From: Mesodorylaimus sp. YZB2_4
Taxonomy: Eukaryota; Nematoda; Enoplea; Dorylaimida; Dorylaimidae
Direction of reading: 5' to 3'
Assembly: GCA_030248295.1 (NCBI GenBank)
Contig: JASANH010001507.1
Span: 124,001 to 188,000 of the forward strand
Length of the DNA stretch: 64,000 nt
The translations under genes and the position numbers were made by a program. Shown here in pieces: positions 6,832-64,000 of this stretch. Numbering within the stretch: position 1 is the first letter of the stretch; every line of letters starts with the position of its first letter. Under the pieces are notes generated by a model. That model was not told where the DNA came from. It saw only the letters and a list, made by a program, of their open reading frames with translations, and ran no database searches.

Positions 6832-8934
6832 CTACTTACCCTTGGGTCCTTGGCCACCTTGCGATGGTGGTTGGGGTGGTGGGCCAGGGTAGCCTATACG
6901 ATTATCATTTCCATTCGGTCTCGTTCCATTGGCAGCCATTTTGTAAGAGCCATTCCCACTGTCCTTGGCGGGTGCTGAAGGCGTGGTCCCCAAATGTGTG
7001 TACCCGTTCATAAGCATGGCCGTGTCCTTTTCTCCGTCCGCTTCTGTAAACCCGCCGTCATCCACATGGTTTTGACGATTATAGTAAAGGCCTTTCTTCT
7101 CTCCGTCCACTGAATCCAGATTCGAGGCCGGAGACTTGGCCATGCGGGCTTGTTGCTTTTCCATGAAATCCTAAAATGACACTATTTCATCAACCGGTGA
7201 CTGAATAACAGGCCTTATCACTGCTTACCTTGAACAGTGCCGCCGCCAATTCCGTTGTCAACAAATCACCAGCGTGGCCACTGATAAAGCGCAAAAGGAG
7301 GATGCCGTCCGGACGAAGTGAATTTCGGATAAATTGTTCCATCCGACGACGATCGGCGGGCAGTGCACCTTGGAACATGTCGTAGTGAGAAACGCGTAAA
7401 TATTTGTAGACCAAACGACGCGAGGAAGGAGGCCAACAGCTGAATAGCCACCACAATAAGTTAGCGATGGTCGAAATTGCCACGAACACCATCCAAAACC
7501 AAAGAAATAAATAGATCTTCTCATTGAACATGTTGATGATCAGTACGCATTGGATGGTGTGCTTCTGAGTTTGACCCAATTCACGAACCACAAAATCGCA
7601 CAGGGTCACGCGAGGGAAGTGACCACTCTCCGTCCATTCTCGTCCACGCCACAAATCGGCCAACATCTGAGCACCCCAAAACGTGTAGTTGGTTCCGAGG
7701 AAGGCGTTGAGCGTGACCAACTGACTGCATACGTTCACCACGTACAGGAATTTGACGAACAGGTACAGACAGCATAAATAGCTGCCAAAGCGACGACGAT
7801 CGATGCCAAAACGGGAGCAGACGAAGCCCAGCTGATCTCGATTCTTTTCGATACTTGATTGCAGATCTAATGACTCCTCGATATAATGAGCCAGCGTCTG
7901 GACGTTCTTTTGTCGCTTATCTGGATCGAAGCCCACAGAGTCCGTAGCAATACTTAAAATGCCTTTGACGTTGATCCCTGAACAGAAAATGTATTTTTAC
8001 CTGACACTATTCATATTCTTCTATCTTCTCTCGCGTCTGATCAACCATGCACATCCACCATGTTCTGACGAGTACAAGTATGTGCACGTGTAGGGGTACC
8101 TGTGTACTACGCGGGTATAAGACCGCGCTACCCAAAACTACCGTAAATCCTCACTTTTCACCTGGGGATATCAGATTTAAAAGGCTAAAGTTTCTCTAGG
8201 TCAGAACGACCTGTACTACCGTCATCCCACAGTGCATGTTCCCGATACTGTATCTACACCCGGCGTCTGCCACCTTTCAGAACCCTATTTGGTACAGTAG
8301 TGCAGGAAGAGGAAATAAGTGACATAAGAGAGTCGAATAAGGAGTTATGGCGGTCCCGCCCCTGCCCAAAAGCCAGTGCACGTACAACATTCTATCCGAC
8401 AAACCAACTTACCAGACTGCCCATTGAACCACTTCCAAATCATGTTCGGGAGGTAGAAGAGCACCGCTTGGATGGCCAGAACGATAGGCACCCATTGGTA
8501 ATATCCTAAAATGTAATGCGCAAGCATTTCATGGATAGGGCATTATGAGACATGCCTCCGCCAGACTTCACGCAGCCAGGCCTGCTTACCGAGCTTCCTA
8601 TAGTCCCGTTCCAGTTGATCGGTAGGAATGCCCTTTTCGAAGGGCAGGAAATAAGTATTTTGAACGAAACAGTACGACTCGGCGTATTGTTCCCATCCAC
8701 CACGGAATTGGGCTGGTACCTGCAAACCATACCATCCATACCACCTCGCATTTGGCACCTCACAAGCCTACTTACCCAGCATTGGATGGGCTGACCAACA
8801 AACTGCTTAGCACTGACGGCCAAGGCAAGAAATAGGAAGATATGGACGGAGTAGTAATAGTTCAATCGGTCGGCAATATCGTCATAATATTGCTTTTTTA
8901 TTGAACGAAACGCCTGGTCCAAAAAAGGCAACAT
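6832..8934 (-). CDS. Innexin (gap-junction channel subunit)
   Basis: Innexins form invertebrate gap junctions and hemichannels with four membrane helices. Five exons join in frame: 8776-8934, 8590-8719, 8413-8505, 7229-7977, 6832-7170, giving 489 aa. The ATG at 8934 starts MLPFLDQAFRSIK, followed by the family hallmarks DDIADRLNYYYSVHI, SAKQFVGQPIQCWVPAQF (ending helix 1 and entering loop 1), ESYCFVQNTYFLP and the P-element YYQWVPIVLAIQAVLFYLP of helix 2. Helices 3 and 4 lie in the fourth exon, including IINMFNEKIYLFLWFWMVF. The last exon is a hydrophilic Gly/Pro/Asn-rich cytoplasmic tail. The stop at 6834-6832 overlaps a GTAAGT donor, so an alternative spliced tail is possible. Confidence 0.95.
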
Positions 8935-11900
8935 TTCCCTCCTCTCCGCTCAAGTTTGGAAGACGATTGATTGCGTGGCCCTGATTCAATTTTCGATGCT
9001 CTCGAAAATCTGAAAAAAGAGGTTTGGTCGAATAAGATGTTTACGACGGTGGTCACGCGCTTCTGATATATTAGCTAACATACCAGCCACTTCGCGCCCA
9101 CTGTAACTCGAGACAACAATCCGATAGGTCTTGGACCAAATCGGCTTTTCTCACACAAAATCCAGTTTTCTAATCTTAGATTTGCGTCTCGGGTCAAGGA
9201 GCTTACTCTCGACAAAAGAATTCGAAACGCCCCGCTTGAATAAGGACTATGCGACAAGTAGGACCCGGCTTTGTGGGTGCGCTCCACTTGCGCCCATCAA
9301 ATCAACGACACCTCGCTTACAAGCGACGAATACTCCAGCCAGCAGTAAGCATACCATGTGTCTGGAATCCGATCCTAACCCACCCAATGTCCTACATTGC
9401 TGACCTCAATCGAAACGAAAGCCCTTCGCCGAGTGCAGCCAACATCAATCACTGAAAAGATAATGCCGTAAACACGACCGGAACCCAGCTAGCTAGATAG
9501 CCCAATCCCAATGACCGATGGTCACTCGGCATGTATCCCACCCACACCCGCCCCAATATCCGCTTCGTCATTGGCCGACGTTCCGTTTCCGCTTATTGAA
9601 CTGGCTCAGCATGCTAGCTAATGGCCTTTCCTCTGACCCTTGAGTGACCGCTCGAATGATGCCCGCCAGTGATTCCGTCCATTTCGTTTGAAAAACGACA
9701 TTTGCCACGATCTCAACCAGCGTACGACGAGTGTACTAACGTGCAACTGGACAAAGGTCAGCTAAGCTGTAAACGTTAATGAGTGACCCCTGCACGTATG
9801 CCCATTGTCCACGCTCGTCACATGACCCTGTCCGTTTGAAAAAAACGTCACATAGGACCATTTCCGCACCTAGTGCCGACTAGACCACGGTACACACTGG
9901 TTGACAAAGCAACTTTGTGAGAGCCGACTTTGCCATCGGTAAATCACAGATCAAATAACAACTCCAGAGGGCTAACTTCCAGATTGCCAAAGACAAACAG
10001 CTGTTTTCACACAAAAAGTGCCACTCGAATCTTGTCATTTCTCCACACGTTTATGTTTTCCTCCTTGACACACATGTCGCCCTCGAGGATTATGAAACAT
10101 GCAAGGAGGATACACAGTAAAAAAACAGGAAAAGATGACGAGCTATAAAATATTGAGAACTTCCTCCAGCACGGCAGACCCAATCCAGATGACCCATGCA
10201 ATATCTGTCCGCCGAACAGCACACCATATTAGAGGTTATGCCAGCCGACTGGCACCAGTGGCTTAGGTTCGGTCCCCTTGCAATACAATAAGAATACCAG
10301 CTAGACCTATGTCCAACTCTCGATTGGACGTCACATGGTGCAATCAGACCCCGGAGGCCCGACGCGGCTGAGGCCACCCTCACTTCACCAAACGACACCT
10401 CAAAACCAATCAAGCATTTCCATTAACGCGAACCCATACCTAACCATGTCCATATTCGAGGAACGGTATTTTGTGGGGCTCTAATAAAATGGGCGAGCTA
10501 ATGACAGTCGTGACCTTGATCGTAGGCTGGTCAGAATGCAAGCACAAACAGAGGACCAACGGCGCCTCGCCTCGTTTTCCGCGTTTTCTCGCCCATGACG
10601 AACGGCACCAGTCGCCGATGTCAGAACACGTAGGGATGGTGAGACACACCCTTCGCTACCTCGCTACATGCTCGCTGAGAAAACACGAGAAATCCAGGCG
10701 GTACGAGTCGCCGCGAACCGACAGCGCCTTCGACCGATCGAGGAGACCTGCCCATTGTGTCCATCGTACAGTATCGTACACAAACGATCGGTGGTCATCA
10801 ACGAGCAACCAACGTTTACCCAAGCACAGAAGGCTCGTTTGGGCAGCGGCAGCTGAGCGTATGCTGGCGAGAGGCGCTCGAAATGGTCCCCTCCTCCCTC
10901 CCCCTTGCACCCCTATCGCGTCCGTCCCAATCTGTCTGAGAGCTAGCCAACGCAAAAACCGGCTACGCCAATATGAATCGAGAAAGGAAGACCATGTTTT
11001 ATGTTCGGGAGACATTGAGAAATGCAGACGAAAAGCAATGACCCGAGAAAATACGTCGGGTTTCTTTCCACAGTACTCGCCGTCAGCTTTGCATTCGAAT
11101 ACCAGGTGCGCATTGATTTTCCCGAACTTCCATCAGTCTGGCATCGATCATAAGAAAGTCCTTGGTTTACCGTGCAGCCTCCATATGGCTTCCACATTCC
11201 AACCAGTCCATCATTCTGTAATGGTAACATCCGATTCATCCAGCGGGTCACTCGCTGTCCGAGTCGGGAAGGCCAGTCATTCGCATCAGCTTCTTACCCA
11301 TCCCGATTTCAACCTTGTCCACTGATCACCCTCTCTCGTTCAAAATCTGGTCGCCAATTCCAACCCACCCACAAAATTTGTACACTAGTCGGGCTCGCTT
11401 TGATACAAGAATGAAAACACGAGGACAACGCGTCTGGCAAACCGTTTCGCAGTAACAATAGACGACAAGGGACAAACATTGACGAGGTGCAGACAGGGCA
11501 GACGTGGACGGAACGACAACAAACCTGGCCTGTAGACACCATAATTACGTGTTACGCAGGGAGACTACCCGAAATGCCGTGATGCCATGATGCAATCCGA
11601 AGGCAATCAGAGCTAGAATAAACAGGTAAACAACGAGCACAGACGTCCGCTCTAAATGCTACCAATGGCATCTTCGATAGATTTCAAATAGTTCTAAAGA
11701 CCGAGGCATACTTGTGTATTTGAATGTGTCAATGTCGATAGAACATGTCGTGGTTCGACAGGAAAAAACATTCCATAGGGTGCTGCACGACCGACTTGGT
11801 ACGCCCTCAGGCCGCATGGTGTTCCTGCGATGGGTGCAACTGCTATACAAGTTCATTCGATGCGCAGCTGTAGTGTCTGATGCGAGCCAAAGCTCCAAAG

Positions 11901-12394
11901 GTCATACAAGCCAGTAAAAACCATTCTGTCAAGACGAGGAGTATCACATTCTTTGCGGTCTACCATTCTTAATCTCTCATGAACTCGGTTGAGTTGAGAA
12001 AGGGCGTAGCTGATGATAACCCTTCGAGGAAACTTTCACTGGCGAAAAGGATGGCAGTCTCAATCAATCTCAGTCTCCGTGTGGGAAGGGACCCTGCAGA
12101 GGCCGACCCAGACTATCGTGCATATGGATTTACAACCTCCACAGCACATGAGAGGGTAAGTTCCTCTTTGGAAGGCTGCATGAGTGATCAACGGGTGCTC
12201 TCGGTGCAGAATAGAGGCTCCAAGGAATCGGAGTGTGCATGCAGTGTGCGAGTGAATGGCCTGCTGTTACGGTCAGTGCAGTCCCGCTGTCTGCATTTTG
12301 TCCTGTTATGCGACGTTGTTCTGTTCGTTTATCAGAACACAAGACACAAGACGAAAACTCGAAAAGCAGAGCAGACACAGTCATCATTCATTGA
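8935..12394. other. Intergenic stretch, no supported gene
   Basis: This 3.5-kb stretch separates innexin from the lysine-rich protein. An 855-base open frame at 10471-11325 (+) exists, but its translation has no recognisable domain and an erratic composition rich in His, Ser and Arg. I judge it non-coding. No RNA gene or mobile element was recognised. Confidence 0.45.
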
Positions 12395-13249
12395 TCACGA
12401 TCGCTGCGGGCAGTAAAATTGACGACTTCTTCGGGGCACTTCGGCTCCACCTTTCTTGGATTTCTCGCCCTTCTTGGACTTCTTCGATCGCTTCGATTTC
12501 TTCTTCTTCTCGCCACCGCTCTCTCCTCCCGCCTCCGATCCACCCTTGGATTTCTTGCTGCGTTTCGACTTTTTCGACTTCTTTTTCTTCCCTCCGCCAC
12601 CTTCCGGCGTACCTGGTTCCGCTCCCGCCTCGGCCTCTTTGCCCTTCTTCGACTTTTTGCTCTTCTTCTTGGACCGCTTCGACTTCTTTTTGCCCCCTTC
12701 TTCCGTCGTAGCGCCGCCCTTCTTGCTGCTTTTCTCCCTTTTTTTGGACTGAAAAGGAAGAATGCAGAATGCAGTCTGAACGTTACCTGATCAGACCCTT
12801 TCAGGACTTACCTTCTTTTTCTTCTTCGGCCCTCCTTCGTCGGCGCCCTCCTCTTCTCCTTCCTTCGGTGCCTCTTGGAGCAGTGGCGGAGCTGGCGGTA
12901 GTGGCGTTGCGTCGGCGCCAAAGGGCGGTGGCAGTTCTTGCACTGGCGGTGGTGTAGCAAACATGGGCGGGGGAGCGAGCACGGGTGGCTGCCCGGCGTC
13001 TTGCTGCTGCGGCACGACTGGCGGCGACGGAGCAACTCGAGGTATCGGCGTCAGATTCAGACCCGAGTACTGATCGATCAGTTCGAAGGCTTGTTGGCCG
13101 AACGGCAGGCCCTCTTGTCCACTTTCGACTCGCTGCTTGTGCACCAACAGGAACATGAGCGCGCCGCCGAATAACAGAATCAGGAACGACAGCGGGTCTA
13201 TTCTCGAATTGCGACGACCACACGATTTACTGACTTCGCACACGAATGA
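12395..13249 (-). CDS. Lysine-rich single-pass membrane protein, unidentified, 5' end uncertain
   Basis: Not recognised as a named family. Two exons join in phase 0: about 12812-13249 and 12395-12748, with donor GTAAGT and acceptor TTTTCAG. The upstream exon opens after an in-frame TAG and has no early ATG; the frame just after a possible TTTAG acceptor gives about 17 residues and then a helix PLSFLILLFGGALMFLLVH. It continues with a Pro-rich segment (many APP/PPP), then acidic EEEGADEGG. The second exon is a run of Lys-Ser-Lys blocks (KKKSKRSKKSKK type) with Gly/Glu spacers, ending FYCPQRS before TGA at 12397-12395. The layout suggests a short N-terminal anchor and a very basic tail that could contact acidic partners or nucleic acid; this is inference. 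Upstream coding exons may exist. Confidence 0.6.
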
Positions 13250-14207
13250 CTAAACTGTAGTGCGAAGTGACCTTACAACTGCCAGATATTGTACAGTAAC
13301 ACGCCTGTCATCTGCTGCCAAGTGCTGCGAGTGTAAAGTTGTACAAGCTTCCATCATGTACAGCAAGTGATGGAAATTTTATCACTATGGAAATGAGAAT
13401 GCTGCGATGGACACTCATCTTGGCAGGGATGCATCAAATAATGAAGACAGATACACGCAAGATACTGCCTATCGCACCAATGAACGATGAGAAGGTGAGA
13501 TGGCGACTGAGATGGTGTGCGTAGAGACCCGGATCCATACAGCGATGGAACTAAGTGGAAGTCCCAGAGGGACAACGACCACTCGGCAGACCAAAGAAAC
13601 GATGGCTGGACACTCCCGCTGTCAGATGCGACATAAAGATGAGACGCAACAGACTGATGAAAACAGAGAAAAATGCAGAGAAATGGCCTAAGAAGGGTGG
13701 GTCAAAACGCTCGGAAAATCGTGATGAAATGATGATTGGCGAGAAAATCAGAGGCGCAATGCTGAGCATAAGCATGCTGCTACTGCTCATCGCGCATACA
13801 CCAAACATGCACACACACACTGTATGCACATTTACTGCAGATTGTTCCTTAGTGTATATCGCCTAGCTGGCTTCTCGCGCACTGACTGGTTGTGGCCGTC
13901 TAATCTACTCGGCCGAAAGTAAAACCTGAACTCCTCACCCAAGTGACGGGCTATTTGAGAGCGGGAGTGACTCAAAAGCTTGAGCTTCTTACGTGATGTG
14001 CTTTCAGTGACTGCGACGATGATGACGATGATGACTGGACTGGCGAGATCGCAGATGATGGTGACGATGACTGCAAGTCGACAAGGACTGATGTAGATGG
14101 AAAAAGGTTCGATGTTATCGTAAATAGATCCCAACTGTACCTGCTACAGCTACCCCAACCACGACTCCCGTCTCATCCAACTACTGCTCAGACACTTTCT
14201 CTTTCAG
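13250..14207. other. No recognised gene; presumed 5' region of the bHLH-PAS gene
   Basis: Small open frames on both strands show no family similarity. The N-terminal exon(s) of the downstream bHLH-PAS gene must start in or before this stretch, but I could not identify them. A TG/CA-rich patch is at about 13798-13830. Confidence 0.4.
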
Positions 14208-16855
14208 CACTACGTCTAGCAATCGACCTTCGAATCATAGCGAAATTGAGAAACGACGTCGCGATAAGATGAATAGCTTTATTACAGAAATAGCGAAACT
14301 GGTTCCATCCTGTGCCGGCCTGTCAAGACGGATGGATAAGCTGAGTGTTCTTCGCTTAGCTGCGCATCATATTAAGGGCCTGAAAGGTAATTCCGACATC
14401 CAATCACCTTTTCAATCTATGATCTGGTTGGTTTAGGATCATTTAACTTCAATGGCATAGAAGCCATCAAACCAGCTTACGTGTCCGACGACGAGTTTCG
14501 GGAACTTATTCTTCAGGTAAACTCCGGTAGTATGTACGAATAGATCCTTTGCCTGCAGCGAGGGTCGGCGCCGAGCCTCTTACTTCTTATCCCAGTATAA
14601 TGTTTCATGCCATTTCACTCCCACCGTTTTATTTTCCTTGCAGAACACAGACGCATTCATGGTCGCCGTCAGCTGCGATGACATGAAGATTTTCTACGTT
14701 TCTGACAATGTTCAAGATTCTCTTGGGACCTCCGCGGTTAGTGCATCCGCTTCCCGTACTACCTACCCTCAGTAGTGACTGGCAGCGACCTTACAGGATG
14801 AACTCGTTAATCAGAATTTCCTCTGTTTCGTGCACGCGGATGATTTGGAAACGGTCAAGAGTCAAGTTCTCTGGAGGACGATAGGTATGCAACAGAGGCG
14901 GTTCCATAAATGATGCCAGGAGAGACCATTTTCAGCTGATCAAGCACACGCCAGCAGCGTCAGCAGCAAGGATAGCTCTAGGAGTGGAACAAATGTTACT
15001 CAAGATTATGGATCGACTGAGTGCTCAGCATTGGCACCTGGATCGAAGCGATCGTTCTCGTGTCGTATGAAGAGCAAAGTGGGCTCGGAGTCGTGCTCCA
15101 GGTAAAACACAGAGGTCCTCGCCCGAGGGACAGGCTATAGACGGCGGAAGCCCATGAGGACACTGAACATCGGCCCATATGAGCCATGGGCCATATCCCT
15201 GGCCCACATCGGCCTTATGGGCCATGGACACTCCGTGGCCATTTTTTAAAACCACGGCTCCATTTGCAGTTTGTTCAGTTTTACTCTCACAATTAGCCAA
15301 GGCGTGGTCGCAAGGTATCAGCAAGAGGCCAATATGTCGCTAGAAAAGCAGATTTAACAAATCTTATTTTATGAGGAATATCATCATCAGAATATTTCCT
15401 CCTTCAAAGGAGTTTTTTAATGAGTGTCCTCGGGGCAATTTCGAGAATGCCTGTACAATAAAAGTTACTTTTGTGCGTGAGACGAGGACCATTCCTTCAC
15501 AACACAGCTGTGCTGGACTCTCACATTCAATAAGGACAGGCTTGTGAGGCTTGGAGAGGCCTTGACACATGGAGGCTTCTGCAGACGCGCCAGTCAACAG
15601 CTTGTCTGGGCCCAGATTATCAGAGAATGTACCCCATCGAGCTTTTGGACCATGCCAAACATGCTGACCATGCTGTTGGCTGCTAACCAAGTCTCTCTAG
15701 CTGTGGCTGCGACATCATCCTGATGGGCAACGTTCCAAGCTTCTGGATGCAAAGGCCTTGATCGCTAGACGAGCTTACGCTCTGCTCTAAATGCAGCCAG
15801 AGCTTCTTCCATGCTTGCCATCAGCTCCATTTCAGTTTTGCATCCTACAACGACCTGCCCAAATTATCCAGCCCTTCCCATTTGCTCTGGCTTCCCGATC
15901 TGCCGCACCCCCAAGACCACGATTATCGCCTTATGCACTGCGAAGGCTTCATCAAGTACTGTTCCCCCGTCAACACCTCCACTACTCTCAACTCTGACAA
16001 CGACTCAGTTTGGCAGAAAGGTTTGGATAGAACGGGTGCGGCTCGGACAGATTCGAAGAAAGAACACAACTGCTTGATCCTGATGATCAAACCGATCAAC
16101 TCGAATGTGGGATTCCATGAATGTGGTACGCTTGAATTGTATCACTTGGCCAAACCTTGCAAGGTGCTACTTCAGGCATCGGTACAGACACTCCTCGACC
16201 TGCCACATTTACCGGACGCCTTACTCAAAACGGAAGGTTCATCTACATGGAAGACAAGTAAGAATTGTCAGGTTGTAGGAGGCCACCAGTAAATTTGGGA
16301 GGGCGATAAGTGAGGGGGCTCGTAAGTCACGTGATAACTGAATTAAAAGTGCCACACTTTCAGTGTTTCTACACTCCTCGGATACTTACCTCAGGAGTTC
16401 ATGCGGACGTCCTATTACGAATACGTTCACAAAGACGACATCCCACTCGTCATGGCAGCTCATCAAAAGGGTACTGGATTTCCCACCCGATTCTAACTGT
16501 TAGCTTACAAAATATGCTCTTAGTAGTGTTTGAATCCAGTGGCGCCCACGCTTCGCCACAATATCGATTCCGGATTCGAAATGGTCATTTCGTTCAAGTC
16601 TCATCCAGCTGGCGAAGTTTTCGGAACCCATGGAGTGGGCACATTCAGTTCATTGTGGTAGAGCATACTGTACTGTCAGAAAATAGGTCTGTCCGTTATG
16701 TACAGGCAAGTCAACGATGCACACATTGTGGCACTACTTTCAGGCCACCACTTGTCGGCCGCCCACAGTCAGTTACGGCCCCTAATATCAATGCCAAGTT
16801 GAGCACACTGACCCAACTTCTTCTAAGAAACGATACGACTGGCTTGTCTCCGTGA
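14208..16855 (+). CDS. BMAL/cycle-type bHLH-PAS transcription factor, 5' partial
   Basis: BMAL/cycle is the partner of CLOCK in circadian transcription and binds E-boxes as a heterodimer. Ten exons join in frame: 14208-14386, 14437-14516, 14644-14736, 14797-14884, 14936-15101, 15872-16125, 16176-16257, 16364-16470, 16524-16686, 16744-16855. The basic region and helix 1 read SNHSEIEKRRRDKMNSFI, with helix 2 MDKLSVLRLAAHHIKGL, closer to BMAL than to ARNT. PAS-A holds FMVAVSCDDMKIFYVSDNVQ; the linker has KRSFSCRMK. PAS-B begins GRLTQNGRFIYMEDK and includes LLGYLPQEFMRTSYYEYVHKDD and WRSFRNPWSGHIQFIV. About 37 residues follow PAS-B, so the long C-terminal transactivation region of vertebrate BMAL1 is absent. 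Start exon not found. Confidence 0.9.
15102..15871. repeat. Repeat-bearing large intron of the BMAL/cycle gene
   Basis: This is the only large intron of the gene. At 15175-15235 the motif gggccat/atggccc recurs several times, giving a locally self-complementary patch. Bases 15701-15739 match 52961-52999 in an intron of the homocysteine methyltransferase gene (shared core acatcatcctga, then gggt/gggc, then gctccaag/gttccaag), so both introns carry copies of one dispersed repeat. Confidence 0.5.
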
Positions 16856-17587
16856 AAACCAGAACAGGTCTGCAGGATCACGCCAGGATTGGACAGTTAC
16901 TATTCGTCCATGTGCATTACGATAGACCCTATCTTGCTTTACTGCTTTCATGGTACTGTGCTCGATATGCTAATCTAGTGATACCCCACGGGTTCACCTT
17001 ATCGATAATATAAAACTCCGTCGAAGCTGGTTCAGGACACCGTTTCGATCTTGAGAATCCTCGATTATCGAAGAGCGGCAGCCTACTGACATTGGAGAGC
17101 CCTGTGAAAAAGCGTCCACATGCGTGGGATCTAGCCAGCCCCCCACGGTGGTGGCCCATCGTGCGCTGTGTTCTCAGTACTTCCGGAGGTTTAGTGTGAT
17201 CAGAGGTCAAGTAATGTACTGTACATCACCCGCACTACAGGGCGCGGCATAATTTCTGGTACAGCTTATTTGAAGCGCCGCCAGTGAACACACAAGACAA
17301 GCTAAGGCTGAAGCCGGATGGATAAACCATCTGTGCCAAGCCAAGAGCGGTGGCCGCCTGCTTTATGAACACTGGCGGACAACCGCCGCACCATTTTGAG
17401 ATTGCCACATCTCATGCCCACTTTCCCATGTTACATTTCACAGCATATCGATTTACCCCGATACCTTATACTTTCAAAAATGACCAAGCGCAAGGAAAAC
17501 GATTCAGCTCAACAAAAAGAGCAGTGATCGATTATCGAGTGCAACAAAATACCAAATGAATCTTCACTGAATCCTCCGATCGCAAAA
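16856..17587. other. Convergent intergenic region, nothing recognised
   Basis: It lies between the 3' ends of the bHLH-PAS gene and the dipeptidase gene. No domain, tRNA or clear repeat was seen. Confidence 0.4.
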
Positions 17588-20556
17588 TCACAACTTCGAC
17601 ACCTCTAACAGATAAGCCGCCAGTACCTTGGCCTGAAACATGGAAGTTTGCAGGAGAGGAGTTAGCAGATCGATAAACACGCCTTCTTTCAAGCAGGAGC
17701 CCCACACTCGCGGTCATGGTTTCTTTTCTAATGTACCTCCTTCAACCTCGAGTGCGCTAGCTTTTGATGGTTCGGTAAAACAGGACAAAGAACTGCCATC
17801 CATCCCTCAGAAAATAACCCGTTTTAAGGCCCACATGGACTTTTGGATAAGCCAGCTACTTCCTCGGTGCCCACCCTCAACTCAACACATACCCCTTCAA
17901 TGTAATTCTTCCGATTAATTTTTTCATTTTGCGAATGAGCACCATCGTCGCACGATCCGAGTGGTAACAGCATCACGTTCTTTCCGGTGGCCTCTTGCAA
18001 AGACAGCGTCAATGGAATGCTTCCACCTTCCCGAGTTAAGTCAGGCTCAACGCCATACACTGAAAGGGGCCTCTCACAGATATCATCTCACAGCTTCCTT
18101 TGATTGGTCCTCACCTGCTTTTATCGCTTTTCGCCCAGCAGTAAAATGAGGATGATTGAAATCACTGACCCAAGGCCGTCCATTGTGAACAGGCACCACT
18201 TTGCACACATTGGGCGTTCCTCGTTCCTTGTGCAACTTCTCCACATAATCTACCACCAAACGATCGATATGATCGGGTTCTTGATTCGGGACCAATCTAA
18301 TCGAGAACTTTCCGACCACACGACGTGGAATGACCGTCTTCGTTCCTGGACTGCTGAAAGCGCCCTCAATACCTGAAAAAGTAACCTTTTAGCTTTGGCT
18401 TCAAAAATCAGTGGGTTCTCTGTGCTCTGAGCGAGCCCGTGTGGGGACAAACCACAAGGCAGCTTCTCTCTTCATCTCTCTAATAGCATTCTGGACTCAG
18501 CACTGGTTTTTAATAGACAAGGCAGATAGGCGGGGTTTGACTTTACTGGTGCCGAGATAATCAGCTCGCTTGGTTTAGGTCCCTGCCTGCATCTCGAGGT
18601 CGCAGACAAGTCGTGGTAACGGCGGCCACTCACGGCAGGGCCACCAAAAGTTTACGACTTTTTAAGCCGACCTCGAACACCAGATGGAGCCGTCCGCTCG
18701 CTGCCAAGCAGTACAGGTAACGGGGATGTTTCCTCAAAATCCGCACAGCTCACAATCCACAACTTTCCCAGCAGCTTCTTCGCTCTTTCAAATGATGTAT
18801 CATCTTATCTACGAAATTCGAAAAAAATGTGCAGATTTTGAGGAAACTTAACCCCACCACAACAGACCCTGACCGCTGCTTGTTCCTCTCACCTACCGTG
18901 AATGGACAACGACGGATTGCGCCAACGGCTCATCAAGCAATTGGCCTTGTCTTCGTGGATCAACTTCTTTGTTCCCACAATCGACCGAAATCCCGCCTAC
19001 GATCGATCTGCATTCCAACCGACCCAAAATATAGGAAGTCACCTTACCAAATCGAAATCAATATTATCGTACAAGGCACGCTCTTGATCAGTCACCGGAG
19101 CCACCGAATCGTACACGCCAGGAATCAAAATTTTCCCATCCCTATCCACCAATCGGTCTAATAAATAGATCAAATCAGACATCGCTTCGTGCCTGAAAAA
19201 CTGTCCAACAATAATAGATCGATGTCATATTAAAAAATCAATACTTACACGGCCCCACCATAAGAGCCACTATGCAAATCTTGATTAGCGCATGTAATAT
19301 CGACGAAATAATAGGAAATACCCCTAAGAAACCAACTTCCGCTTTGGGTACCACAGCCGATTCCAAAACATACCTAAGTCCATAAGTGATACATGGTTTC
19401 TCCAATCCCAAAAAGTAATTGTCCGATATGCAAACAAAATCAACATCCTAAAATAAAATTTCTTCAAGCATTCATCTAAAAATACAACCTGACCTGACCT
19501 TCAACCATTGCTGTTCTTTTCTTCGAGCCAATGCCTCTTCGAATCCTTGCGAACCGTTCTCTTCCATCGCTTCTAAACAAAACTAAAAAACCCACACTTT
19601 TTAAAAGCATACCGAACCAAAGCGAACTAGTTACTACCTTAATATTTACTGGAATTTCGGTCCCAGTTTTCTGATAAGCTTCGATAACATTGATCCATCC
19701 CAATACAGGGCCTTTATCATCCGTAGCCCCACGTCCGTACAATTTGCCATCCTTCTCGGTCAGTACGAATGGTTCCGTGTCCCAGCCGTCAGTCTAGAAA
19801 CTAGAAATGATGATGTCTGAGGTGATACGTTTTATTAGACTTTCTGTTTTCTTGACTTTCTGTTAGCTGGAACGCGCAATAAAAAGTGGAATAGAAATAG
19901 AATACTAAGAGGAAAACTCTGTGATCAAACGAGCTTACCTTTTCCGCTGGCTGAACATCCAAGTGCCCATAGACTAAGACGGTTTTCTTTTTCGAATCTG
20001 CTCCCAACTGACCGAAAATGAGCGGAGGACAATCGAGTTCACCACCTTCGGGTAATTGTTCTTTACCGCCAGATTCCAATTCGCACTTCACTCCGTAAGA
20101 TTCCAAAAGCTAAAAAAAAAAATGATATTCGGTGGGAAGAGTGGATGGGCACACCACGATCAAGAAAAGACCAAAAAGTGCTTTTGATAAGCCATGTCCA
20201 CGCATCAAAAGCGGGCATGAAAATCTACTTTCCCAGGACCAGGAGAGATTCGAACCCTTCATCCATCGACATGCATACACCCTAATCCCTACCACACCAC
20301 GACCCAAGTGCAGCGTGCACAAATGAACGAATAAATCATACTTTTTTGGTCCATTCCACCATTTCGACCACATCGCCTCTTGCATGAGGCCAAGAAGAAA
20401 CGCTTTTTATGGCCACTGCTTCTCGTAATCGTTCGATGAAAGCCTTGGCGTGTTCGTCCACATACCTAAAATATATAAAGAGCCAGGCCTTCGCTGCATT
20501 CAATCGGGAATAGAAAATGAGACATACCCAAAAACTTTTTTCAATTCTCCGCTCAT
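17588..20556 (-). CDS. CNDP2: Cytosolic non-specific dipeptidase (carnosine dipeptidase 2, M20 metallopeptidase)
   Basis: CNDP2 hydrolyses dipeptides such as Cys-Gly with two metal ions. Twelve exons join in frame: 20528-20556, 20342-20465, 19939-20109, 19638-19793, 19499-19582, 19374-19447, 19249-19323, 19048-19192, 18897-18996, 18115-18372, 17893-18059, 17588-17632. The product is 475 aa, the length of the human enzyme. Metal-ligand motifs are intact: [43 protein letters not shown], and [16 protein letters not shown] near the end. [17 protein letters not shown] and [11 protein letters not shown] complete the lid/dimerisation domain. The ATG at 20556 ([17 protein letters not shown]) matches the family start. 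Complete and apparently functional. Confidence 0.96.
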
Positions 20557-35248: not shown

Positions 35249-37516
35249 ATGGAAATTGAAGAAGCCGAGGTCCTACTTGCGCAAAAACTAGCGGACTGCG
35301 ATCCCGCTATTAGAAAAAAAGCGTTTTCGCAATTACGGCGATGGATCACGTCGAAAATGAAATCGAAGGAAGGTACAGTTAGGCCTATAAGAATGGGATT
35401 TTTCTTTTCATATTTTGATATAGATCGATCAGCATTTGTCGTAATTGGATAGTTTTAACCGTGTTTCAGGTTTCGAACGCTCCGAATTAATCACTTTGTG
35501 GAAAGGACTCTACTATTGTATGTGGATGCAAGACAAACCGCTAATGCACGTATGTTTCACTTGTTTTACTTTCACAACTTGGGGTGGTTTGTTTCTGTGA
35601 CCTGTAAGTTGAGCTTTCGTATTGCCCCGAATATGTTCTCGAGGAGGAGAGGGATTTAACTGCGATCGTTCTCTCTGGTAGGATTACACGTTCGAGAGCA
35701 AGACCAGAAAAAATAAGGTTATCGTATATGAACTCACGATCAGTCAAACATTGTGGTCAGATCATGGGCTTACAGACAAACAGCCCTTGGGTACAGGAGA
35801 CCCTTCGTTGGGCATAAAGTTCGATTCGAAAGATATGGGTACACGCAAGCCAGTCGTAAGCCCCATTGGAGGCCCCAGTTTGTTCCTATTCTCATTGCTC
35901 ATTGCCGAAAATACATTCAAATCATAGCCATAGTTCCTTTTATCCCGATCACATGTCACTACATCTTTCAGGAAGAATTGGCCGATCGTTTCTGCTCGCT
36001 GGGCGATAGTTTTACAACAATGGGCCAACATATCCTTTATCTAGACACCTTCCTTGAAACAATCGGCCGCGAGTGGTATCAGCTGGATCGATGGCGAGTG
36101 GACAAGTTTCTGATGGTAAGGTTGTTTTTTCATTAATTGATCATGTTCAAACGACTTATTTTCAGCTGTGTCGACGTTTTTTCCGTCATTCGCTAAACTG
36201 GTTGAAGTCGACAAAATGGGACAGCGAGATTTTTCAGAATTTAGTGGAAATGTATTCGAAAACTGTTTGGACTGCTGATCCTGATGCGTATCCGGAAGAA
36301 TTGAAATGTCATTTCGCTTCAATTTACTTGGACGAATTGGATTTGGCTGGTGTCTTCTCGCTGGATAAGGAAAGAGTATTCCAGTTCTTGGATGTCTATC
36401 TCAAGCTGATGACGGTTAGAATCAGGTATGTGAACTTGGTTAGGTTAGGGAGGACAATGTTCATAATAGGCTGGAAAAGAGGGAGGTGTTGAGTGTGGTG
36501 TTGAGAACCTAAGACATCCTATTACGACAGCAATCATCCTACGGTTGAGTGATGTCTTACCAAGCGATCGAGAGGTGCGCGACTTGTAGATTCATCACAC
36601 TTTATGGACTCATACTGACGTTGGGCGTAGTGTCTTCTGACTCAGAATCTGCATGTTTTGCAGCCTCATTAGGTCAAAAGCGGTGCTCTATCTCACTAAT
36701 CAACCACTATTCTTATAGTAATTTGTTCTTCCGCTCCATTGAAACCGAAATTTTCGATGCGATTTTGGTCGACTTTGCCGAAAATGCGTTTCCAAAACCG
36801 AAGTCGAAACGTGGGACGAAACACATATTGCTATTGGATCCAGTTGGGTCAGCAGACGCTTTGCAGGTACGCGTATTCCATTAAGATATACTCGATCACT
36901 AATAAGTGTAGTTTAGGTCGATTATGGCCGAATCGCAGACGCCTTGTTAGAAGCGGGTAAAAACAAGTCTTTGAATGCTCACAGACGGAAGACCATTTAT
37001 AAATTGACTAAACAGTAAGTTTTTGCTGGTAAATGTTCCCAAAGTTCCATAGGCGTGCCTTTTTAACATTTAGTTATCGTTCTGCGGCCAGTGGACAGAA
37101 TCCATTTCGTGAAACTATAGAAATCCAAGAAGATATAGGAGAGGAAGAGGTATTTTGGACATGCTTATTGTCATGCACTTCTCACGACTGGGTCTCTCTT
37201 TTTTTAGTTGGACCAAGCGGCCTTGGAGTTTCTGAAATGGAACAAACCTAAGTCCAAGAGACGTCAGCGAAACAATGAGAAAATAGGTGCAGTAAATGGT
37301 ATCCCGATCCCAGGCGTCGTTTGATAATAAATCGTTCTTTGTTTAGATGATGATGACGAAAAGAGCGATATCGACGACGAACCTGAACGGACAACAAAGA
37401 GCCACAAAGTTCGCCGCACATCGATCAAAAAGAAGCGGAAACCAATGCAAGCTACGAAAACAAAGCGCGGTCGTAAAATTGATTCAGGAAAACGAAGAAA
37501 GATATCAAAAAGGTGA
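35249..37516 (+). CDS. RRP1: Ribosomal RNA processing protein 1 (Nop52 family)
   Basis: RRP1 is a nucleolar factor for 60S-subunit pre-rRNA processing. Nine exons join in frame: 35249-35372, 35470-35549, 35972-36115, 36166-36425, 36719-36866, 36917-37014, 37074-37149, 37208-37286, 37347-37516; product 392 aa. Family matches: [75 protein letters not shown], and [19 protein letters not shown]. The C-terminus ([17 protein letters not shown], then Lys/Arg-rich blocks) is a typical nucleolar tail. The ATG at 35249 gives [12 protein letters not shown], matching the family start. The 3' end converges on NIT2 with an 86-bp gap. Confidence 0.95.
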
Positions 37517-40749: not shown

Positions 40750-41355
40750 TCACAAAGACGAATTGGCCTGATTACATTCGAGTTTACGAGATCTCAGGTC
40801 AGGAATCGAATGACCATTCGCGTGGCCAGTCGCCCTGGTGGATGCGGGCGGATGAGCCAGACGATTCAGCGTGTAGTTCAGACCTTTGGATGCATTGTGC
40901 GCATTCAATCGATACCTCTCGATTCCGAATCGTTCCAATACCGATGCAAAACCACGAATTTGACTATTAATCCAAGCTTCACGTTTCAAATGAGTATTTT
41001 CACCATCTTTCTCCGACCAATAGCGTTCATAGGTGCACTTTTCCACAGTACTCATCGTTGAAGCGTAGCCAACATTTCGAGTGTAGGTCACCATTTTTTT
41101 GCTGTCTCGATCCAGAATCGATTCTTCGACGATGACCACGTGTCGCATGTGCACAAATCGCTGACCCCATTTTGGTATTGGATTGGTTTTGATCAGTAGA
41201 CGTTTAGTGAATAGCAGTGGGCCTTGCACTCGTCGCAGGATCGTGTCTTCGGACAATACGTGCCTGCTGTGCGGATTGGGATACCGCTGCCACACGGCCA
41301 CCATCACTCGATCCCAAGGATTCTTCAGGGTCGTGTCCACTGAATAATACTTCAT
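40750..41355 (-). CDS. PRELI/MSF1-domain mitochondrial lipid-transfer protein
   Basis: PRELID1-type proteins shuttle phosphatidic acid across the mitochondrial intermembrane space with TRIAP1. A single intronless coding exon of 201 aa. The ATG at 41355 starts MKYYSVDTTLKNPWDRVMVA, followed by WQRYPNPHSRHVLSEDTI, LFTKRLLIKTNPIPKWGQ, VIVEESILDRDSKKMVTYTRN and EKCTYERYWSEK, all in the family order. LKREAWINSQIRGFASVLERFG closes the domain. The tail after residue 180 is Asn/His/Arg-rich and not conserved. PRELID1 versus PRELID3 type is not fully resolved; the RYPNP motif favours PRELID1/Px19. Confidence 0.93.
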   Translation of the reverse strand: MKYYSVDTTLKNPWDRVMVAVWQRYPNPHSRHVLSEDTILRRVQGPLLFTKRLLIKTNPIPKWGQRFVHMRHVVIVEESILDRDSKKMVTYTRNVGYASTMSTVEKCTYERYWSEKDGENTHLKREAWINSQIRGFASVLERFGIERYRLNAHNASKGLNYTLNRLAHPPASTRATGHANGHSIPDLRSRKLECNQANSSL

Positions 41356-42564
41356 TTTTTAAAATTAATAGAAACCTAGTTTGAAATCAAATAACGGACA
41401 TTACGGCTGACTCAAAAGTCTCCCTCTCAAAGCAGCAAAATCTACTTGAACAAGGATAAAACGCAAGCAAATGACTGCTTTGCGCGGGAATTCGAAATTT
41501 CGCCCTTTCCCACCTACGACAATGATAGATGACACACATGTTTTCTCAGTTTCAGCAGTCTTATCAGATTCAAGCAACATACCTGACTGATTAAGCCAAC
41601 AGTCGGCATGGCACAGAATGTGCATGCTTGGTCCAACAGGGACTAGATTGCAGAAGGTAGCGCCGGCTCCCCTCTTTGGGCAAAGCAAAGATAAACTACG
41701 CAATTTGGACTATTTTCCAAATCTGCCATTTCTGTCGGATCGTACCGTATACTGGAAGAGTACGCATGGGCGTGGGACTGTAGACGCTCGTCTGGTAATC
41801 GATCGTCTGCACGAAGCCAGTAGCTGGGACCATTTCCGTCATGGCGACGTTTCAGCCATGGACTATGCTGGTCACTGCCACGGCCATGGGTGCTGGCTCT
41901 CACTCACGATCAGCCTGAATCCCACAGGATGTGCTCCGAACAGTGTCCTCAGTGTTGTGAATTTTACGCTCGAGGGTGTCTGAAATACTTACTAGGAAAC
42001 CACTGCAGTTGTCTCTGTTGGGAGGAGCCACGGAGTAAAAGAACGGACCCCTTGGTTTAACTCAGGCCCTCTCCATCGCTTTGACCAGTTGTCCTACAGC
42101 CGACCAAGGAAATACGCGCATTGTCTGTTCCATCAGCCATAAAATCTATGAGTTTCACTTTATAACGCAATGCGCGAGGCCATCATAGGCATCCCTATGC
42201 GTAGTTATAAGGCCAGCACCTGATTCACGATATCATTGAATTGATGCACGCTGTCTGATTTTGCCAGCCAGTCGCGGTCGAAACTCAAAAATCCTACGGA
42301 CTGGAATTAAGGACCGGATTAAGGATTGTTGGCCTCCTCTTCTTGTAGTAAGTACTGCATTTTTCGGGGACGGTGGTCTCACGCAGGATTTTGAGAGTTC
42401 TTGTTGTCTCTTGGGACGAACAGATGGTGAAAAAGCTGATGGGGAAATTCGGGACCATGGTTAGGACCTAGTTTTCGACTATACTGTACTGTTTATTCCT
42501 CACCTAAGCGCTTGAGCGCACTAAGATCGTGGGACAAGCAGGAAACTCAGCATATATAGATCAG
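41356..42564. other. Mostly non-coding; one weak minus-strand exon candidate
   Basis: On the minus strand around 41698-41845 an ATG-initiated frame reads MTEMVPATGFVQTIDYQTSV and continues about 28 more residues. It has no recognisable family and no clear donor. The rest shows nothing supported. Confidence 0.25.
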
Positions 42565-52164: not shown

Positions 52165-53716
52165 ATGGTTAATGTGGCGATGGCTGTTTCTCAGCTACTA
52201 CTGTCCAAGGGCGTGCTGGTGTTGGATGGCAGTTTCGCATCTCAATTGGAGGATGAGGGTGTTCACATTCAGGCATGCTAGGTTCACCTTTAGGTAAGCT
52301 ATGTCCGTGTCGCCGTTATCGTTTGTCTTTCAACTTCCCAGGGCGATCCGCTGTGGAGCGCAAGAGCGTTGATCACGGATCCGGATAAAGTCGTCCAAGT
52401 CCATAAAAGGTATGTTGTGGTAATGTCGGGGTCTTCGTATTTACTCGGCATGTGGTAATTTGGCTAGGCACATACAATGAAACAGTTTTTGATAAAAAGA
52501 TTTGACATAGCCTGGGGTGATTTCAGATATTTAGCCGCTGGTGCTCAAATCATCGAGACAAACAGCTATCAAGCCGCCATACCGAATTTGCGAAAAGAAC
52601 TGGGCCATGACGGACAAAGCAAAGCAGAGCAATTGGTCAAAAGTAGTGTTCAGCTTGCCCGTCGAGCCGTGTCCGAGTTCTGCGAGGAAACTAACCGAAA
52701 AAATGATGAGTTCCTTGTAGCTGGCTCGATCGGACCCTATGCAGTTGTTCTACACGATGGATCGGAGTATTCGGGCCAGTACGTCCACACCACTCCTCAC
52801 GAGGTATGGAGCAAGGCACCAACGGGCCAGCAATCAATTTTTCATCTTCCGGGCCTCTCATCCAGGACTAGCTTCAACATATCTGGGTCACATTACTAGG
52901 GGATGACCGGCGGAGATCCACCACGCCAGAAACCCCAGGACAGCCCGGCAGGTCTTCTAACCTGGCTGAAACATCATCCTGACGGGTGACGCTCCAAGAA
53001 AGGATCCACTGCCAGTCGAGCCTCTACATAGCCTAGCCTAAACGTTGATTAGTTTTCTAGGATATCATATCCTATTATCAAGGACAAGTCCAAGCACTTT
53101 TGGAAGCTGGTGTTGATCTTCTCGCCTTCGAGACTGTCCCTTCTTTGGCTGAGGCGAAACTGATCGTGCAAGTGCTCCGATCGCTTCCACATTCGGTCTT
53201 CTCATGGATATCGGTCTCGTGTCGCGTAAGAACTTCCACCTATCCCAAATGTCCCTCACAACCGACCCATTTCCAGGACGGCACGTTCACTTGTGGTGGC
53301 GATCGTTTTGGGGACGTAGTGTCCGCTCTGTGCCTCGTCCCCTCTGTTCACTTAATCGGGATCAATTGCACGGCTCCTGAACACGTCACGTCGCTCTTGA
53401 AGCAAGGCACGCACGGAATGAAGTCATTCGTGGTTTATCCGAACAGTGGCGAGCAATGGGATCACGACAGCGGGTGAGTCACCCTCTCGTACTAGTTTCC
53501 AAAAGGACCCTAACTTGATCTCGTTTCAATTCCAGATGGCACAGCACGAAGGTCACCACACCACTAGCCCAGTACGTGCCCGAGTGGGCGGCTCGTGGCG
53601 TGAAAGTGATCGGTGGATGTTGTCGTGTTATACCGAACGAAATCAGACAAATCGCTGAGGCCGTGTCAAATTTATCAAACCCTGTCACTTTGACCAATTT
53701 GAATATTAGCATTTAA
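52165..53716 (+). CDS. Homocysteine S-methyltransferase
   Basis: The enzyme transfers a methyl group from S-adenosylmethionine or S-methylmethionine to homocysteine, making methionine. Six exons join in frame: 52165-52272, 52342-52409, 52527-52803, 53061-53225, 53277-53473, 53536-53716; 331 aa. Motifs: VLVLDGSFASQLE, GDPLWSARALI, GAQIIETNSYQA, VAGSIGPYAVVLHDGSEYSG, LLAFETVPSLAEAKL, IGINCTAPEHV (first zinc Cys) and VKVIGGCCRVIPNEI (two zinc Cys in GGCC). The zinc triad is intact. The first intron appears to start with GC (CAG then GCATGC) because the only good reading joins CAG to GGC GAT; the next GT follows an in-frame TAG. Intron 52804-53060 carries a dispersed repeat. Confidence 0.93.
52890..53045. 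repeat. Dispersed repeat in methyltransferase intron
   Basis: Bases 52961-52999 match 15701-15739 in the BMAL/cycle intron in the same orientation. The surrounding sequence gccagaaaccccaggac is C-rich. Copy boundaries are unclear. Confidence 0.45.
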
Positions 53717-62500: not shown

Positions 62501-62776
62501 TTTTTAATAAAATTAAAATACCTAAAATATGCTTTACAAAAAGAAATGCTAATGACTAAAAGACGAAAAAGGAACAATTTGAATTTGAAGCAGTCCCGCT
62601 GAGTTGAAATTATGCAGCTTTGTCATAAGCGACGCACACTTTGATCTACGGTACACCTATAAAGAGGTGTGTGCGCAGCGCGATTCCGTGTGGTCGACGA
62701 AAAAGAGGAGAAAACAGAAACTCCAGGGAAGAAAGTTTGGTGTCCCGAAAAGTCCGATATATCTACTTCGTCCAAA
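62501..62776. promoter_or_regulatory. Divergent promoter region of RAP1-like gene and DHX8
   Basis: The two start codons, facing away from each other, are 276 bp apart, so the region must contain both transcription starts or a trans-splice acceptor. No specific motif is claimed. Confidence 0.55.
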
Positions 62777-64000
62777 ATGGATGAACTACGGCAACTTGAA
62801 CATTTATCACTTGTATCAAAGATATGTACGGAATTAGAAAACCATTTAGGGTTAAACGATAAAGATTTGGCCGAGTTCATTATTGATATGGCTCAAAAGA
62901 ATCCGACGTTCGATAAATTCAAGTCGGCTTTGGAAAAAAATGGAGCTGATTTTGATGATTCATTTATTTCTAATTTACTTCGGCTTATTCAGCACATGCA
63001 ACCGAAGAAACGTGAGGCAAATGATGATTCGAAAATTACTTTGGTGTCAGATAAAGAACTTCTCAAGCAGCGTTTACCCGCTTTGGCCATTCCCGATGAT
63101 CCAGGAGTTCGATTGATGGCCGAATTTGCTAATTTAATTCCTCAGTGGAAGAAAGAGGAGAAACCCGGTAAAGAACAAAGAACGGAGAAGACCGAGAAAT
63201 CCCGGCATCGTGACGATGGCGAACGTCGAACGAGACGACGCAGTTCCTCGAGTCGAAGTCGGAGTCGATCACCTGGAAATCGTCGAGGACGTGGACGTCG
63301 TTCTCGTTCACGGTCATATGAATCGCGTCATCGACGTCGGTCTCGTTCAGCGGATCGGCGCCGCCGAAAAAATGGCAGCCGAAGTCGGTCCAGATCAGGC
63401 GATCGACGTGGAAATCGACGCGACAATCGGCGACCACCCATCGACGTATTTGACGAAGAACCAGTGGTTGGAAAGATCTACGAGGGGCGTGTGACCAATA
63501 TACGTGACTTCGGATGCTTCGTTCAGCTGCATGGCATCAAGAAACGTATGGAAGGGCTTGTTCACATCTCTCAGCTCAAGGATCAACGAGTCGGGGCTGT
63601 TGGTGATGTGGTCAGCAGAGGACAAAAAGTAAGCGTCGAGAAACTCTTAGGATCTTATTTTGAATGTCATTCTTCCGGTTTTTTTCAGGTGAAAGTAAAA
63701 GTTCTCAGCTATGCTGGAACTAAGGTCAGCCTATCGATGAAAGAAGTCGATCAAGTGTCTGGGGATGATTTGAATCCCAGAGAACCATCGCCAGAGTTTG
63801 GGCATATGGACAACGATCGAGAAATAGCTCGTAATCCGGATCGTCCGCTTGGCGGTGTGTTTGGTGATCGGAATGATGCTGGAGGCAGTGGTGTTACTTC
63901 GTCGTCGAGTAAACGAGTCGTAAAACGGCTCACATCGCCCGAACGATGGGAAGAAAAGCAAATGATGGCCGCCGGATGCATGTCGACTGTTGAATCGCGA
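62777..64000 (+). CDS. DHX8: ATP-dependent RNA helicase DHX8/PRP22, N-terminal part, 3' partial
   Basis: DHX8/PRP22 releases spliced mRNA from the spliceosome. Exon 62777-63628 joins in phase 0 to 63689-64000, which runs off the window. The ATG at 62777 starts MDELRQLEHLSLVSKICTEL, followed by ENHLGLNDKDLAEFIIDMA and DDSFISNLLRLIQHM (N-terminal helical domain). A long RS domain (SRSRSRSPGNRRGRG type) follows, then the S1 RNA-binding domain: VVGKIYEGRVTNIRDFGCFV, MEGLVHISQLKDQRVGAVGD, GQKVKVKVLSYAGTKVSLSM and KEVDQVSGDDLNP. The last residues RLTSPERWEEKQMMAAGCMS match the linker before the helicase core, which lies outside the window. Confidence 0.96.
   Translation, partial: MDELRQLEHLSLVSKICTELENHLGLNDKDLAEFIIDMAQKNPTFDKFKSALEKNGADFDDSFISNLLRLIQHMQPKKREANDDSKITLVSDKELLKQRLPALAIPDDPGVRLMAEFANLIPQWKKEEKPGKEQRTEKTEKSRHRDDGERRTRRRSSSSRSRSRSPGNRRGRGRRSRSRSYESRHRRRSRSADRRRRKNGSRSRSRSGDRRGNRRDNRRPPIDVFDEEPVVGKIYEGRVTNIRDFGCFVQLHGIKKRMEGLVHISQLKDQRVGAVGDVVSRGQKVSVEKLLGSYFECHSSGFFQVKVKVLSYAGTKVSLSMKEVDQVSGDDLNPREPSPEFGHMDNDREIARNPDRPLGGVFGDRNDAGGSGVTSSSSKRVVKRLTSPERWEEKQMMAAGCMSTVESR

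Follow-up and report, generated by a model that had tools for sequence, protein, structure and literature searches.

The window, the whole stretch of 64,000 nucleotides that we analysed, carries an apparently intact bHLH-PAS gene on its forward strand (14097-16855), modelled with 11 exons and a predicted product of 459 amino acids. A preliminary description had claimed a gene with bHLH, PAS-A and PAS-B domains at 14208-16855, and our analysis confirmed it. The parts of the gene, with the evidence for each, and the neighbouring genes are as follows.

14097-16855, forward strand: whole gene, BMAL/CYC-type, from predicted start to stop codon (exon chain, Pfam, PDB)
14097-14119, forward strand: exon 1, predicted first coding exon, MEKGSML plus a split codon (prediction)
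14208-14386, forward strand: exon 2, bHLH, HLH match at about 14230-14385, SNHSEIEKRRRDKMNSFI (exon chain, Pfam, splice)
14437-14516, forward strand: exon 3, linker between bHLH and PAS-A (exon chain, splice)
14644-14736, forward strand: exon 4, first part of PAS-A (exon chain, splice)
14797-14884, forward strand: exon 5, second part of PAS-A (exon chain, splice)
14936-15101, forward strand: exon 6, end of PAS-A, motif GSKRSFSCRMK (exon chain, PDB, splice)
15836-16125, forward strand: exon 7, linker between PAS-A and PAS-B, preceded by a 734-base intron; least certain edges (frame and phase)
16176-16257, forward strand: exon 8, start of PAS-B; PAS_11 match at about 16205-16684 (exon chain, Pfam, splice)
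16364-16470, forward strand: exon 9, PAS-B, LGYLPQEFMRTSYYEYVHKDDI (exon chain, Pfam, splice)
16527-16686, forward strand: exon 10, end of PAS-B, SFRNPW, the BMAL1 Trp427 position by alignment (exon chain, splice, alignment)
16744-16855, forward strand: exon 11, remainder of the 40-residue tail and stop codon (exon chain)
7193-7996, reverse strand: innexin (family match)
36058-36489, forward strand: Nop52 (family match)
40753-41358, reverse strand: PRELI (family match)
52468-52896, forward strand: homocysteine S-methyltransferase (family match)
62663-63997, forward strand: S1-domain RS-rich protein (family match)

Exons 2 to 11 span 14208-16855, are separated by nine GT...AG introns of 50 to 734 bases, and are free of stops up to the TGA at 16853-16855. 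The bHLH exon begins at 14208, and its open frame has no ATG ahead of the domain. We therefore added the upstream exon at 14097-14119, which has a fair donor (GTAAAT), the right phase, an 88-base intron and an in-frame stop directly before its ATG. The bHLH and the two PAS domains were found in a single reading frame over the spliced exons, and the predicted protein scored above the Pfam cut-off for HLH (1.2e-12), PAS_11 (3.7e-25), PAS_3 (3.9e-22) and PAS (3.2e-15). DP splicing of the window DNA against human BMAL1, with the exon list withheld, reproduced the boundaries of exons 2 to 6 and 8 to 10, the outer ends excepted; it chose another stretch instead of exon 7 and stopped short of exon 11. 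With ARNT as the guide, some of exon 7 was recovered (about 15916-16071), and a few other edges came out differently. Exon 10 has a possible tandem acceptor three bases upstream.

Two further elements lie 5' of the gene. One is a retroelement relic on the forward strand (about 13355-13866) with at least 32 matches in the genome, the window's own included; it contains the motif GQRPLGRPKKRWLD. The other is a lysine-rich minus-strand frame (12395-12790). The scan of the neighbourhood covered ten frames, four of which had no family match and one only a sub-threshold match to 7tm.

The short C-terminus described earlier is present in the gene model, but its length needs correction: the tail after PAS-B comprises 40 residues rather than about 37 if the 57-base intron at 16687-16743 is spliced, and 59 residues if that intron is retained. 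When 16400-20500 was searched with two hand-typed C-terminal peptides of BMAL, the best E among the matches listed was 0.44. The tail itself showed no similarity to a BMAL1 activation-region peptide, since 1864 of 5000 shuffles scored equally well. Neither the peptide search over this interval nor the shuffle test thus recognised a hidden BMAL tail near the gene, and the gene model contains no BMAL1-like C-terminal activation region. Such a region is found in BMAL1 and is missing from fly CYC, and is therefore not defining for the BMAL/CYCLE family.

The genome (G000; 145 Mb in 1067 contigs) was searched for possible partners, and the absences reported below hold for this assembly and the family models used. 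CLOCK and PER, for which a search had been proposed in the preliminary description, were both present. Contig C3 carries a separate ARNT/AHA-1 gene (466 bits to ARNT versus 306 to BMAL1). The CLOCK gene on contig C4 scored 187 bits to CLOCK versus 135 to BMAL1 and fell into the CLOCK clade with support of 100/99. The last open frame of this gene closes some 840 bases past PAS-B and includes a glutamine- and leucine-rich stretch with a weak resemblance to the coiled coil of CLOCK exon 19 (a CLOCK chain was the third of three PDB matches, E 4.4). One intron of this gene contains a repeat (L034:6455-6622), for which 40 of 810 genome candidates were scored. The PER/LIN-42 gene, on contig C18, matched Drosophila PER best (77 bits), followed by BMAL1 (61) and lin-42 (52). 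Further bHLH-PAS genes look like NPAS4/CKY-1, SIM/HIF-type and AHR members, names that we assign by reading their motifs.

The attribution of the DNA to a probable nematode was borne out. The N-terminal domain of cuticle collagens, which is characteristic of nematodes, gave 133 matches among 137 candidates scored in the genome, and the genome's ARNT paired with C. elegans AHA-1 in the tree (100/100). We consider it very improbable that the window contig (C131) belongs to a different animal present in the sample, such as a host or food organism. Both C131 and the CLOCK contig C4 lack a cuticle-collagen match among the matches listed, which speaks for foreign DNA. However, diverged copies of the relic 5' of the window gene occur on C2, C3 and C18, and the repeat of the CLOCK intron recurs on C1, C10, C35 and C121, all of them cuticle-collagen contigs. 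The diverged repeats that C131 and C4 share with collagen-bearing contigs make contamination unlikely.

In the same assembly, mitochondrial cox1 and nad4 recur in nuclear DNA at C73:251445-254668 (L044, L045), partly arranged as an inverted repeat. The frames duplicated beside this insert read as neprilysin-like, and no rRNA was found beside it. The 18S rRNA gene is complete at L050:936-2741, and a shorter copy with a different flank lies at L051:936-2143.

The window gene had been said to match BMAL/cycle better than ARNT/AHA-1, and PDB and profile scores, diagnostic residues and best trees all agreed with this. In the PDB search, the top three matches of the window protein were BMAL1 entries (209.6-211.6 bits), and the best ARNT entry scored 170.5 bits. 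PAS-B alone scored 84.0 bits against Drosophila CYC, as it also did against a PER2 chain, and no more than 48.0 bits against isolated ARNT PAS-B domains. Small-family profiles gave 263 for BMAL, 192 or 213 for ARNT (three or five rows, respectively), and 100 for CLOCK. Over a 238-column core, the protein was 44% identical to human BMAL1 (105/238), 41% to BMAL2, 40% to fly CYC (96/238), and 31-38% to five ARNTs. The earlier wording "well-preserved" is too strong for a gene with 44% core identity to human BMAL1 and a long branch.

At 25 columns that distinguish three BMAL from five ARNT rows, the window gene agrees with BMAL in 10 and with ARNT in 3, and matches neither in the other 12. By our own alignment and numbering, the BMAL1 Trp427 position is NPW in the window gene and NPY in the genome's ARNT, while the genome's CLOCK retains the EWKF tryptophan at the CLOCK Trp284 position. 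These two tryptophans stack on each other, according to the part of the structural literature available to us (PMC6378743). The NPW in the window gene together with the tryptophan retained in CLOCK fits a CLOCK:BMAL pair.

The best maximum likelihood tree placed the window gene with BMAL/CYC in all five data sets. Of the ten reference rows behind these trees, nine were wholly or partly typed by hand or hand-copied from alignments (human ARNT and ARNT2 were the hand-copied ones, the rest of the nine being typed). Support for the BMAL grouping was not firm (63/53; 82/86 for the core; 69/75; 59/54; 84/88 for PAS-B), although in the PAS-B tree the window gene paired with fly CYC at 95/92. In four reduced sets the ARNT clade, C. 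elegans AHA-1 included, received 99-100/98-100, with the window gene outside. The branch of the window gene was long (1.05-1.8). AU tests of the whole data set rejected placement with the two nematode ARNTs (p = 1.07e-05) and with the genome's own CLOCK (p = 1.2e-05), but did not reject placement with the three CLOCK rows together (p = 0.071). A position as sister to the ARNTs as a whole was not rejected in any of the five data sets (p = 0.326, 0.125, 0.15, 0.077 and 0.063). The phylogeny suggested for the PAS domains thus yielded no supported grouping with ARNT, but its grouping with BMAL was not firm either.

These values bear on the idea that the gene arose as a duplicate of ARNT, evolved fast and acquired BMAL-like residues by convergence, and now offers AHR/HIF/SIM-type proteins a second choice of partner, with no role in a clock. 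The long branch, the AU values of 0.063-0.326 with all ARNTs, and the three ARNT letters at diagnostic columns are in its favour. We nevertheless regard it as improbable, given the rejected grouping with the nematode ARNTs, the position with BMAL in every best tree, a profile gap of 50-71 bits in favour of BMAL, the ten BMAL letters with the NPW tryptophan among them, and the presence of a CLOCK gene in the genome. An ARNT/AHA-1 identity was accordingly set aside as the best reading, although the AU tests do not reject the gene as sister of all ARNTs. BMAL is the best reading of the window gene, short of proof because of the long branch, the limited tree support, the unrejected AU placement with all ARNTs, and reference rows that were mostly typed by hand.

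Other clock components were sought in the same assembly. The search for TIM that had been proposed did reveal a TIMELESS-family member (one candidate scored, one match), but apparently not one of the Drosophila type: its three PDB matches were all named "Protein timeless homolog", and from these names we take it as a gene of the TIMEOUT type. The PF03441 and PF00875 profiles found one match each (one candidate scored in each case), both in the same gene. This gene was considered as a cryptochrome and rejected, as DNA photolyases scored best (353, 255, 243 and 242 bits) and PDB entries named cryptochrome reached at most 218.5 bits. Searches with the two profiles thus recognised no animal cryptochrome in the genome. 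Animal CRY is likewise reported as absent from the nematodes covered in the portion of PMC9498864 that we could consult.

The genome's only photolyase-family match is an intronless class I CPD photolyase gene (contig C2:1790566-1792083, reverse strand; L037:2046-3854). Within the nematode set of PMC9498864, as far as the available part describes it, CPD I photolyase is confined to Trichuris trichiura and Diploscapter pachys. It is a matter of speculation whether the gene might be a horizontal acquisition common to Trichuris.

The E-box CACGTG was not in excess, with 13 occurrences versus about 12.6 expected over five loci and a segment of the window. The observed and expected numbers were 1 and 2.19 (L031), 3 and 2.24 (L033), 3 and 2.35 (L034), 2 and 2.32 (L035), 3 and 1.58 (L036), and 1 and 1.92 (window 10000-18000).

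Taken together, we propose, with a probability of roughly 0.8, that in this nematode the window gene is the orthologue of BMAL/cycle and that its product most likely pairs with CLOCK and binds E-box DNA. Contact with the CLOCK protein of contig C4 would be made through the bHLH and PAS domains, and the pair would bind E-box DNA and activate there. The BMAL subunit would provide DNA contact and dimerisation without an activation tail, and activation would be supplied by CLOCK or by recruited coactivators, as in Drosophila CLK:CYC. As the searches revealed no animal cryptochrome and no TIM of the Drosophila type, PER/LIN-42, probably together with casein kinase 1, would be the likely repressor. 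The gene may act in circadian or developmental timing.

Drosophila CYCLE is a close structural parallel. It has the same order of bHLH, PAS-A and PAS-B, the same NPW, and an end soon after PAS-B; it comprises 413 residues (PMC4232591, partial text) versus the 459 predicted here. CYC also has no transactivation domain, CLOCK being the main activator in flies, as stated in the accessible part of PMC12105198. In contrast to the fly system, the core is much diverged from CYC (96/238), and Drosophila-type TIM and animal CRY were not found in the genome. Mammalian BMAL1 gives the highest core identity (105/238) and the best PDB match, but its C-terminal activation and cryptochrome-binding region has no recognised counterpart in the gene model. 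In mammals, CRY acts as a repressor in that it sequesters the activation domain of BMAL1, according to the same part of PMC12105198. With CRY acting on this domain, a tailless BMAL in a genome with no recognised animal CRY fits a paired loss.

We tentatively envisage a reduced clock, in which CLOCK:BMAL would be the activator and PER the main repressor, with neither animal CRY nor Drosophila-type TIM. The cryptochrome-binding tail of BMAL would have been lost independently of flies, and the C. elegans timer would be a remnant left by the further loss of CLOCK and BMAL. Another rather unlikely possibility is that the gene is a true BMAL orthologue that has ceased to drive a 24 h clock and that, with CLOCK and PER, it times moulting or other development in the manner of C. 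elegans LIN-42/PER. Consistent with this, the timing of development in C. elegans is governed by LIN-42 and KIN-20 (PMC12624140, in part), and the genome has no match to animal CRY or Drosophila-type TIM and no E-box excess. On the other hand, that CLOCK and BMAL have both been kept is consistent with a feedback loop, and the computed results fit 24 h and developmental roles alike.

The wider interest of the BMAL reading lies in the relationship to C. elegans. The preliminary description noted that C. elegans is generally described as having no clear cycle orthologue, in line with the available parts of two publications, which describe the species as without clear CLOCK, BMAL1 and CRY and as having PER and CK1 counterparts (PMC12105198, PMC12624140). 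Elsewhere AHA-1 is taken as the C. elegans counterpart of CYC/BMAL (PMC4232591, PMC12235174), and in one of these sources it is also matched to CLOCK (PMC4232591); both were available as excerpts. AHA-1 and the window gene belong to a common superfamily, but AHA-1 differs in pairing with the separate ARNT of the genome (100/100), whereas the window gene is rejected from a group with both. A LIN-42 tree that took in Period, Clock, Arnt and Bmal rows is described in PMC13195034, and the parts of that article available to us report no nematode CLOCK or BMAL. Titles and abstract openings among the matches listed contained no report of CLOCK and BMAL together in a nematode. We found genes of ARNT, BMAL and CLOCK type together in one genome. 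This coexistence supports AHA-1 as the probable ARNT orthologue, and a probable loss of CLOCK and BMAL on the line to C. elegans. The earlier suggestion of a secondary loss in derived nematodes draws on one nematode, and one species cannot date the loss of CLOCK and BMAL. Trichinella database entries bear CLOCK- and ARNTL1-like names.

The window gene is an apparently intact BMAL/CYC-type gene of a known family, and its interest lies in its occurrence in a nematode that has retained CLOCK and PER as well. With ARNT, BMAL, CLOCK and PER in one genome, this animal helps to choose between AHA-1 as BMAL and the absence of CLOCK and BMAL from C. elegans. The CLOCK:BMAL pair would then be ancestral to nematodes and lost in some of them, and this species would allow tests of a PER-only loop and of the sequence in which CRY, the BMAL tail, and CLOCK together with BMAL were lost.
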